Part shown: positions 14,122 through 27,299 of the stretch, piece by piece | Position numbering within the stretch: the first letter of the stretch is position 1 | Layout: each line of letters begins with the position of its first letter | Assembly: GCF_038050375.1 (NCBI RefSeq) | Contig: NZ_CP150886.1 | Span: 2,893,318 to 2,957,317, forward strand | From: Okeanomitos corallinicola TIOX110 | GTDB lineage: Bacteria > Cyanobacteriota > Cyanobacteriia > Cyanobacteriales > Nostocaceae | Reading direction: 5' to 3' | Length of the DNA stretch: 64,000 bases | Notes under the pieces: generated by a model | What the model was told of the DNA's origin: nothing | Seen by the model: the letters and a program-made list of their open reading frames with translations, nothing else | Databases searched by the model: none | Program-made: the position numbers and the translations under genes

Positions 14122-15177
14122 ATGACCATCGCAGTTGGGCGCGCCCCCTCAAGAGGGTGGTTTGACGTACTAGACGACTGGTTGAAGCGCGATCGCTTCG
14201 TATTCGTAGGTTGGTCAGGAGTATTACTATTCCCCTGCGCCTTCCTAGCACTAGGCGGTTGGCTAACTGGTACAACCTTCGTCACCTCCTGGTACACCCA
14301 CGGATTAGCATCATCCTACCTAGAAGGTGCAAACTTCTTAACAGTGGCAGTATCCACACCAGCAGACAGCATGGGACATTCCTTATTGTTCCTGTGGGGA
14401 CCAGAAGCCCAAGGTGACTTCACCCGCTGGTGTCAATTGGGTGGCTTATGGCCATTCGTAGCACTACACGGTGCATTCGGATTGATAGGCTTCATGTTAC
14501 GCCAATTTGAAATTGCCAGACTCGTAGGCATTCGTCCTTACAACGCCCTAGCATTTTCAGGTCCGATTGCGGTATTCGTCAGCGTATTCTTGATGTACCC
14601 CTTGGGACAATCTAGCTGGTTCTTCGCACCCAGCTTTGGAGTAGCAGCAATCTTCCGTTTCCTATTATTCCTGCAAGGTTTCCACAACTGGACACTAAAC
14701 CCCTTCCACATGATGGGAGTAGCAGGGATCTTAGGAGGTGCATTACTTTGTGCCATCCACGGTGCAACCGTAGAAAACACGCTATTTGAAGACGGTGAAG
14801 GTTCAAACACATTCCCCGCATTCAATCCTACCCAAGCAGAAGAAACCTACTCCATGGTGACAGCAAACCGTTTCTGGTCACAGATTTTCGGGATTGCATT
14901 CTCCAACAAACGCTGGTTACACTTCTTTATGTTGTTTGTACCAGTAACAGGCCTGTGGATGGCATCCGTAGGCATTGTCGGTTTAGCATTAAACCTGCGA
15001 GCTTATGACTTCGTGTCCCAAGAATTACGGGCAGCAGAAGACCCAGAGTTCGAAACTTTCTATACCAAAAATATTTTGTTGAACGAGGGTATCCGTGCTT
15101 GGATGGCACCTCAAGACCAACCCCACGAACAATTCGTATTCCCAGAAGAAGTATTACCACGTGGTAACGCTCTCTAA
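14122..15177 (+). CDS. psbD: Photosystem II D2 protein, copy without psbC
   Basis: The D2 reaction-centre protein (351 residues, five membrane helices) binds the P680 chlorophyll, pheophytin and QA. The ATG at 14122 follows a GGAG site at 14109; a TTG at 14107 would add five residues and is unlikely. The protein is identical to the copy at 26244-27299. By eye the DNA is also identical except four synonymous changes at codons 342-345 (15145-15156). There is no psbC after it, and a terminator begins 59 bases past the stop. A second, solo psbD is normal in cyanobacteria, where such copies are often light-regulated. Confidence 0.98.
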
Positions 15178-15235
15178 TTTGATGATGGATTAATCTCATC
15201 CTTTAAAATTCATCGTTTTTAATTTAATCAACTTC

Positions 15236-15263
15236 CCCCAGGCAAATAGTCTGGGGTTTTTTT
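15236..15263 (+). terminator. psbD terminator
   Basis: The stem CCCCAG/CTGGGG with a 9-base loop is followed by seven T residues. It ends the solo psbD transcript. Confidence 0.88.
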
Positions 15264-15274
15264 ATTTTTCAATC

Positions 15275-15302
15275 TTGCTAAAATAATTTTATGTGTTACG
15301 AT
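15275..15302 (+). promoter_or_regulatory. Candidate promoter of the structured RNA
   Basis: TTGCTA at 15275-15280 and TACGAT at 15297-15302 are spaced by 16 bases and lie just after the psbD terminator. They would start a transcript near 15309. This is a hexamer match only. Confidence 0.3.
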
Positions 15303-24874: not shown

Positions 24875-26260
24875 CTAGTCAAGATCATTCATGGACATAA
24901 CTGGTTCGTTCTCACGATCCAAACCTCTTTCAAAACCACCAGCAGCAGCACGAGCGCGTCCTGCGTGCCACAGGTGGCCGATGAGGAAGAAGAAACCTAA
25001 TACAAAGTGAGAAGTAGCCAACCATGCACGAGGAGATACATAGTTGAAAGAGTTGATTTCGGTAGCCACACCACCTACAGAGTTCAAAGAACCCAGAGGA
25101 GCGTGAGTCATGTACTCAGCAGCGCGGCGAGCTTGCCAAGGCTGAATATCATTCTTAACTTTTTCTAAGTCAAGACCATTAGGACCACGGAGAGGCTCTA
25201 ACCAAGGGCCACGGAAATCCCAGAAACGCATGGTTTCACCACCGAAGATGATTTCACCAGTCGGAGAGCGCATCAAGTATTTACCAAGACCTGTAGGACC
25301 TTGAGCAGAACCAACGTTAGCACCTAAGCGTTGGTCACGGATTAAGAATGTCAAAGCTTGTGCTTGAGAAGCTTCTGGACCAGTAGGACCAAAGAACTCA
25401 CTGGGGTATGCAGTGTTGTTGTACCAAACCATGACGGAAGCAATGAAGCCCATCAAGGAAAGAGCGCCCAAACTGTAGGATAGGTAAGCTTCACCAGACC
25501 AGATGAACGCGCGACGCGCCCATGCAAAAGGCTTAGTGAAAATGTGCCAAATACCACCAGCAATACAAATGAAAGCGATCCAGATGTGACCACCTATCAA
25601 GTCTTCCATGTTGTCAACACTGATGATCCAACCTTCGCCACCGAAGGGAGCTTTGGTGAGATATCCAAAGATAACAGCAGGGTTCAAAGTGGGGTTAGTA
25701 ATCACACGAACATCACCACCACCAGGTGCCCAGGTGTCATATACACCACCGAAGAACATAGCCTTCAGAACCAACAGCAACGCACCACAACCCAAAATGA
25801 TCAGGTGGAAACCGATGATGTTGGTCATTTTGTTCTTGTCTTTCCAGTCATAACCGAAGAAAGAAGAGTATTCTTCTAAGGTTTCTGGACCACGTACAGC
25901 GTGGTAGATACCACCAAAACCAAGAACAGCGGAGGAAATTAAGTGTAATACACCTGCTACGAAGTAGGGGAAGGTGTCAATAACTTCACCACCTACACCA
26001 ACGCCCCAACCTAATGTGGCGATGTGAGGGAGAAGAATTAAGCCTTGCTCATACATAGGCTTTTCTGGGATGAAGTGAGCAACTTCAAATAAAGTCATTG
26101 CTCCTGCCCAGAATACGATCAAACCAGCGTGAGCAACGTGAGCGCCCAGCAGTTTACCAGACAAGTTGATTAAACGAGCGTTACCTGACCACCAAGCAAA
26201 ACCGCTTGATTCTTGGTCACGGCCGCTACCGACAAGGGATCTATTAGAGAGCGTTACCAC
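24875..26260 (-). CDS. psbC: Photosystem II CP43 antenna protein
   Basis: CP43 binds chlorophyll and a Mn-cluster ligand. The 461-residue form starts at a GTG (26260) inside the end of psbD and overlaps it by 17 bases. A strong AGAGGAGGT ribosome site ends 8 bases before it. Six membrane helices and the large lumenal loop are intact ([17 protein letters not shown]). The open frame runs upstream to 26326 and even encodes a [10 protein letters not shown] stretch like plastid CP43, but the internal GTG is the accepted cyanobacterial start. Confidence 0.97.
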
Positions 26261-27299
26261 GTGGTAGAACCTCCTCTGGGAATACGAATTGTTCGTGGGG
26301 TTGGTCTTGAGGTGCCATCCAAGCACGGATACCCTCGTTCAACAAAATATTTTTGGTATAGAAAGTTTCGAACTCTGGGTCTTCTGCTGCCCGTAATTCT
26401 TGGGACACGAAGTCATAAGCTCGCAGGTTTAATGCTAAACCGACAATGCCTACGGATGCCATCCACAGGCCTGTTACTGGTACAAACAACATAAAGAAGT
26501 GTAACCAGCGTTTGTTGGAGAATGCAATCCCGAAAATCTGTGACCAGAAACGGTTTGCTGTCACCATGGAGTAGGTTTCTTCTGCTTGGGTAGGATTGAA
26601 TGCGGGGAATGTGTTTGAACCTTCACCGTCTTCAAATAGCGTGTTTTCTACGGTTGCACCGTGGATGGCACAAAGTAATGCACCTCCTAAGATCCCTGCT
26701 ACTCCCATCATGTGGAAGGGGTTTAGTGTCCAGTTGTGGAAACCTTGCAGGAATAATAGGAAACGGAAGATTGCTGCTACTCCAAAGCTGGGTGCGAAGA
26801 ACCAGCTAGATTGTCCCAAGGGGTACATCAAGAATACGCTGACGAATACCGCAATCGGACCTGAAAATGCTAGGGCGTTGTAAGGACGAATGCCTACGAG
26901 TCTGGCAATTTCAAATTGGCGTAACATGAAGCCTATCAATCCGAATGCACCGTGTAGTGCTACGAATGGCCATAAGCCACCCAATTGACACCAGCGGGTG
27001 AAGTCACCTTGGGCTTCTGGTCCCCACAGGAACAATAAGGAATGTCCCATGCTGTCTGCTGGTGTGGATACTGCCACTGTTAAGAAGTTTGCACCTTCTA
27101 GGTAGGATGATGCTAATCCGTGGGTGTACCAGGAGGTGACGAAGGTTGTACCAGTTAGCCAACCGCCTAGTGCTAGGAAGGCGCAGGGGAATAGTAATAC
27201 TCCTGACCAACCTACGAATACGAAGCGATCGCGCTTCAACCAGTCGTCTAGTACGTCAAACCACCCTCTTGAGGGGGCGCGCCCAACTGCGATGGTCAT
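26244..27299 (-). CDS. psbD: Photosystem II D2 protein, copy in operon with psbC
   Basis: The 351-residue product is identical to that of the copy at 14122-15177. The DNA is identical over about 1.02 kb by eye. The only differences I found are in codons 342-345 (26265-26276), which read GAG GAG GTT CTA here instead of GAA GAA GTA TTA. They form the psbC ribosome site. The upstream site AGAGGA precedes the ATG. This is the standard cyanobacterial psbDC operon. Confidence 0.98.

Follow-up and report, generated by a model that had tools for sequence, protein, structure and literature searches.

The window examined here, a stretch of 64,000 nucleotides from Okeanomitos corallinicola TIOX110, carries two copies of psbD, and the question that they raise is why they differ only in a few codons close to the end of the gene. 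The copy referred to here as solo has no psbC after it and lies at 14122..15177 on the forward strand; the operon copy, which overlaps psbC, lies at 26244..27299 on the reverse strand. Both were located from the list of open reading frames and the sequence. A first-pass annotation had described the copies as identical save for four synonymous changes in codons 342-345, and its coordinates and codons were right: exact alignment of 14122-15177 with the reverse complement of 26244-27299 gave four differences and none elsewhere. Each gene is 1056 nt long and encodes the same D2 protein of 351 amino acids, with 4 of 1056 sites different in the pairwise comparison. The differences (solo/operon) fall at gene positions 1026 (A/G), 1029 (A/G), 1032 (A/T) and 1033 (T/C). 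All four are synonymous and all four lie within codons 342-345, which read GAA GAA GTA TTA in the solo copy (15145..15156, forward strand), where there is no Shine-Dalgarno sequence, and GAG GAG GTT CTA in the operon copy (26265..26276, reverse strand). The genes end in CCAGAGGAGGTTCTACCACGTGGTAACGCTCTCTAA (operon) and CCAGAAGAAGTATTACCACGTGGTAACGCTCTCTAA (solo). Under random placement, four changed codons would fall within four consecutive codons anywhere in the gene with a chance of about 6e-7, and in exactly codons 342-345 with a chance of about 2e-9.

A DNA search of the organism's own genome listed the two psbD copies in the window and no third. Beyond the genes, no alignment between the copies could be made out by eye. 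A 12-nt word, TTTAATCAACTT, occurs after both stop codons (15177-15300; 26120-26243) at unequal distances, with a local score of 24 against a class mean of 15.4; its presence in both flanks is probably due to chance. Together the two copies make up an inverted repeat of 1056 nt, its arms separated by about 11 kb, through which the intervening DNA could be inverted.

A putative ribosome site for psbC within psbD

The four changes had been proposed to create, in the operon copy, a ribosome site 8 bases before the psbC GTG, and the sequence and its position bear this out. The sequence AGAGGAGGT (26269..26277, reverse strand) was assigned as the putative psbC Shine-Dalgarno site within psbD by its complementarity to the 16S tail. 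In 3 of the 4 16S copies read from the organism's own genome, the 3' end is GGATCACCTCCTTT, which is complementary to AGAGGAGGT, so that AGGAGGT is able to pair fully. The predicted duplex with the 16S tail has an energy of -14.6 kcal/mol for the operon copy and -3.4 kcal/mol for the solo copy. The GTG (26258..26260, reverse strand) follows the site at a distance of 8 nt, and its position as a start is conserved in 107 of the 126 pairs described below. From this GTG, psbC, encoding CP43, occupies 24875..26260 on the reverse strand; the start was set by comparison, and the frame in the list of open reading frames runs upstream to 26326. The solo copy too has a GTG at the psbC-start position (15161..15163, forward strand), in a frame that ends after 10 codons. 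We infer that ribosomes use the psbC site in this organism.

Survey of psbD pairs

Pairs of psbD genes were collected from several sources. Among the matches listed, an order-wide search of 148 genomes gave 91 with a match at E 1e-150 and 57 without, the latter, we guess, owing to broken repeats in drafts; a family-wide search of 192 genomes gave, again among the matches listed, 191 with a match. Further sources were 23 named genomes, at least 80 loci of genome_contigs and at least 80 viral loci. We kept 126 genomes that had one psbD followed by psbC and one psbD without psbC, and left out 37 with an operon copy only, 23 with a solo copy only and 1 at an edge. The pairs of genomes G236, G152, G262 and G190 were also left out; the coordinates of G262 are those of G338, which is in the set. 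The phage set comprised 79 of at least 80 copies, one shorter than 1035 nt having been left out. In the overlap class (n=107) a start in the psbC frame lies 17 nt before the end of the psbD stop codon; in the split class (n=19) there is no such overlapping start and psbC begins 87-241 nt downstream. The sample is rich in Nostocaceae, and close relatives are not independent. The last 12 psbD codons specify the same residues in all 126 pairs, and the proteins are identical over their last 344 residues in 103 of the 126.

In the overlap class, every operon copy (107/107) has both GAG at codon 343 (GAG343) and CGT at codon 347 (CGT347). AGGAGG is present in 85 of these copies and an AGAGGT-type core in the other 22. 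Pairing with the anti-Shine-Dalgarno sequence is stronger in the operon copy than in the solo copy in 88 of the 107 pairs, about equal in 18 and weaker in 1. The annotation's view that one codon stretch serves two genes is supported.

Concerted evolution and its gap

Over the body of the gene, the two copies within a genome are close kin. In 102 of the 107 overlap genomes the operon copy is closer to its own paralog than to the operon copy of any other sampled genome, and body distance averages 1.45% within a genome against 8.4% to the nearest other genome. The earlier suggestion that gene conversion keeps the copies alike agrees well with these values. In the 15-nt block, by comparison, distances are 22.6% between paralogs and, between nearest genomes, 9.1% from solo to solo and 5.7% from operon to operon. 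Kinship is therefore reversed, paralogs being closer in the body and orthologs closer in the block: the copies behave as a concerted pair, in which paralogs, synonymous sites included, are more alike than orthologs, except that homogenisation does not extend to the whole gene.

The enrichment of differences in the block, first noticed in the window, held across the 107 overlap pairs, where codons 342-347 differ within a genome in 50, 81, 50, 75, 60 and 55% of pairs against 4.1% for body codons. In the 19 split pairs the same codons differ in 5, 5, 5, 11, 0 and 0%, against 5.4% for the body. With relatives clustered at a 12% cut, the mean block difference was 0.236 versus 0.018 for the body in 48 overlap clusters, and 0.022 versus 0.017 in 13 split clusters. 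Taken together, the 28 overlap pairs with 1-9 differences have 166 of them: 67 fall within the 15-nt block and 37 beyond it, the first 60 nt hold 14 and the remainder of the gene 48. The window pair, with 4/4 in the block, is the extreme among such near-identical pairs.

The direction of conversion in the body appears to be about even, with the operon copy as donor in 155 cases and the solo copy in 127, although later mutations can mimic such events. Solo copies do, then, receive operon sequence, and the same counts give no sign of a one-way donor bias that would explain site-less solos. In the lineage of the window, 7 of 11 informative sites match the operon copy of the sister species and 4 match its solo copy, so there was no single donor. 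A draft genome of the same genus has the block states of the window (operon GAGGAGGTACTACC, solo GAAGAAGTATTACC); between its copies there are, besides, 11 differences in the 350 nt preceding the block and one beyond it. This fits homogenisation that took place recently in the lineage of the window and left the block untouched.

These observations can be brought together as follows. Recurrent gene conversion would homogenise the two psbD copies in roughly even direction. The last codons of the operon copy would also spell the Shine-Dalgarno sequence and GTG of the overlapping psbC, which would place GAG343 and CGT347 under purifying selection, fixing these two codons in the operon copy and nearly fixing those around them. 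A solo version written over the operon block would weaken or remove the psbC start, and we infer that selection removes such conversions. The solo stretch would encode D2 only and keep to ordinary codon use. With converted operons lost and solos under ordinary codon use, the block would stay distinct by copy type in genus after genus, solos resembling other solos and operon copies other operon copies, even as the rest of the gene undergoes repeated rewriting. We put the probability that conversion combined with psbC-driven purifying selection on the operon block explains the pair at about 0.9. The psbC Shine-Dalgarno block is very probably an island that escapes the concerted evolution of psbD; the selection in at least one copy that a divergence island calls for is indicated, as sequence constraint, by the invariance of GAG343 and CGT347 in the operon copies.

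Relaxation or selection in the solo copy

The operon side of this explanation is firm. On the solo side two readings must be weighed, and we lean slightly towards relaxation with a barrier to recombination over selection. The first reading, to which we give an even chance, holds that the solo stretch drifted towards usual codons and that the resulting cluster of mismatches near the end of homology hinders conversion, with no selection on the solo copy. Solo codon use is near background: GAG343 occurs in 18.7% of overlap solos (20/107), and GAG at other Glu codons in 16.3%. Also in its favour, within-genome differences are raised at codons 339 and 341, a little before the block, in overlap pairs (17% and 21%) and not in split pairs (5% and 0). 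Complete block conversions are found in some pairs and so are not forbidden. Eight overlap solos keep GAGGAG: those of G086, G103, G160 and G172 match the operon copy at every base from block to stop, that of G016 differs only in the stop codon, those of G326 and G338 differ at two tail bases each, and in that of G036 the GTG is lost. The annotation would have been contradicted by solo copies in relatives that keep the block; a minority do so, 8/107 with GAGGAG and a further 12/107 with GAAGAG.

What relaxation does not readily yield, at even site preference, is the pattern of intermediates. The solos that accompany the 85 GAGGAG operon copies read GAAGAA in 52 cases, GAGGAA in 24, GAGGAG in 8 and GAAGAG in 1. 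GAGGAA and GAAGAG thus stand at 24:1 in these solos, against a genomic ratio of 83:57 (p 4e-5), although before Val the genomic counts are only 3:3; at the cluster level, 11 to 20 clusters have GAGGAA solos and 1 has GAAGAG. In addition, under neutral symmetric conversion, with a conversion-to-mutation ratio of 8.4 estimated at 13 other Glu sites, 91% of solos should carry GAG343, far above the frequency seen. The gap and the asymmetry are a hint of selection on the solo copy, and the even donor direction, by which solos do get operon sequence, is in keeping with it. On this second reading both copies are selected, the site being kept in the operon and removed from the solo, where a strong Shine-Dalgarno sequence and a GTG late in a highly expressed gene would start useless translation. 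Solo psbD would be under lasting selection against a working psbC start, and conversions bringing in GAGGAGGT would be purged as well, opposite selection on translation initiation keeping apart two copies that usually encode the identical protein. We regard this, both as an account of the pair and as a statement about the solo copy, as somewhat less than an even bet.

Several results count against it. A heterology barrier could explain the gap between 91% and 18.7%, and site-specific codon preference could explain part of the 24:1 asymmetry: GAG is more favoured at codon 342 than at codon 343 in genomes without the overlap too (0.24 versus 0.13), and the relatives compared are not independent. 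Solos showed no avoidance of GTG beyond codon use, CGT347 being present in 48/107 solos and the same codon making up 34% at other Arg codons. Whether or not a solo has the GTG made no difference to the length of its would-be mini-ORF (p 0.28), and no joint loss of Shine-Dalgarno sequence and GTG was detected in solos (p 0.33); the 20 solos that tolerate GAG343 have kept the GTG in 11 cases and lost it in 9. The annotation had held that the solo copy lost a site that it does not need or that would be harmful. The harmful half of that claim is unproven, because solo codon use is near background and 20/107 solos have GAG343. If there is selection on the solo copy, the block would offer a natural measure of what an unwanted internal start costs.

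Genomes in which psbC has moved away

A further reading makes psbC irrelevant and attributes the block to the edge of the gene, whose last bases conversion tracts would seldom reach. There is such an effect at the very end: in split pairs codon 350 differs in 37% of cases and codon 351 in 26%, which means that the final few bases do escape conversion. For the block, the split class rules out an edge effect alone, which we consider very improbable. Beyond the stop codon neither class has homologous flanks, alignment in overlap and in split pairs being no better than that of shuffled sequence, and yet split pairs homogenise codons 342-347. Where the 60 nt before the block are identical, codon 343 is identical in 8/8 split pairs versus 14/58 overlap pairs (p 6e-5). 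An edge would also not place the Shine-Dalgarno sequence on the operon side as consistently as in the overlap pairs, where the order is reversed once. Sequence comparison establishes that the block exists, that it depends on psbC overlapping psbD, and that kinship in the block is the reverse of that in the body. The claim that the block is held apart is accordingly supported where psbC overlaps, and does not extend to split pairs or to the third psbD genes described below (2/2).

The split class also indicates that the site moves with the start. By parsimony on a midpoint-rooted tree of psbD bodies, the overlap/split trait changed 5 times. Split psbC genes have GAGG 9-10 nt before the GTG in 19/19 cases, and split psbD genes end without the site in 16/19. 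GAG343 is found in 3/19 split operon copies and 2/19 split solos, and pairing with the anti-Shine-Dalgarno sequence is stronger in the operon copy in 2/19 split pairs and equal in 17. One split pair, that of G038, has GAGGAG in both operon copy and solo, without an overlap. In 16/19 cases the 23 nt up to the split psbC start agree with an overlapping psbD end at no fewer than 15 positions; for 15 of those 16, as good a match arose in no more than 3 of 500 shuffles. GAGG itself contributes part of the match. The leaders look like relics of a former overlapping psbD end, one that remained with psbC when psbD acquired an end of the solo type. Examples are the split loci L213, L222, L238, L252 and L244, where the leader resembles the overlapping end, as in GAGGTTCTACC, with a 9-nt spacing. 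An origin of the split spacer from the downstream flank of the solo was rejected, no homology having been found between them.

A third psbD occurs in Calothrix parasitica NIES-267 (L463) and Calothrix sp. NIES-3974 (L464), with an 84% identical protein; the psbC-like gene that comes after it does not overlap it and begins with ATG. These copies read GAAGAAGT or GAGGAAGT, without the site (2/2), and the operon copies of the same genomes read GAGGAGGT or GAAGAGGT. The third psbD and its psbC-like gene are presumably a far-red light set. Among the phage matches listed, GAG343 is present in 13/79 psbD copies; other phage Glu sites span 0.05-0.85, so the phage genes are not decisive as proof of avoidance.

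Drafts and assembly

Near-identical copies do break short-read assemblies, as in G209, where psbD is spread over several contigs, but an assembly or sequencing artefact is a negligible explanation here, as the window lies on a contig of 5.1 Mb and many pairs on contigs of several Mb, the signal lies in synonymous changes at specific sites and runs one way across genera, and repeat collapse would erase differences. Among 33 unpaired overlap rows (some genomes appear twice), the operon copy of one, L276 (G196), reads GAAGAA, and in L048/L465 an operon flank goes with a solo-type psbD end, the psbC GTG being gone. We suspect collapsed repeats in these fragmented drafts, a true solo-to-operon conversion being a possible alternative. 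In Oscillatoria sp. PCC 10802 (L461), a second psbD match has an in-frame TGA immediately ahead of a run of N. The results also carry a warning that the two psbD copies may be merged in short-read assemblies.

Comparison with known systems

The psbD pairs amount to a replicated natural experiment, in which the same protein is encoded twice in the same cell and conversion erases nearly all other differences, with a control class in which, by parsimony, the start of the neighbouring gene shifted away on about five occasions. They suggest that what the next gene requires can keep a few synonymous codons different for long periods in spite of conversion, and they offer a way to measure what unwanted internal ribosome sites cost. 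A full-text literature search, judged by title and opening abstract and conducted mostly outside subscription papers, found no description of the psbD block difference. The concerted evolution of psbD is itself already published: long-lasting concerted evolution of the paralogs in cyanobacteria, with recurrent gene conversion inferred and psbD listed for 20 species, was reported (Commun Biol 2018, PMC6053082). As in our pairs, the passages of that paper considered here describe two types with conserved neighbours and copies that cluster by species; unlike our account, those passages contain neither a 3' block that escapes conversion nor the psbC ribosome site.

The overlap has a counterpart in chloroplasts. 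In tobacco, psbC reportedly has a GUG start inside the end of psbD and needs an extended Shine-Dalgarno sequence located in psbD codons. The tobacco genes overlap by 17 nt and, in the portion of the study considered here, translation of psbC is not strongly coupled to that of psbD in vivo (PMC8133689), so we do not claim translational coupling for the cyanobacterial genes. Tobacco thus resembles the operon copy in its GUG start and its Shine-Dalgarno sequence within psbD, and differs in that no second psbD is described and there is no paralog contrast. For the island, the closest parallels are RHD/RHCE and the red/green opsins, where divergence islands are kept by selection against gene conversion between paralogs. 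There too a short stretch under different selection stays distinct amid homogenisation; those islands consist of amino-acid differences, whereas the psbD island is synonymous and would serve the neighbouring gene.
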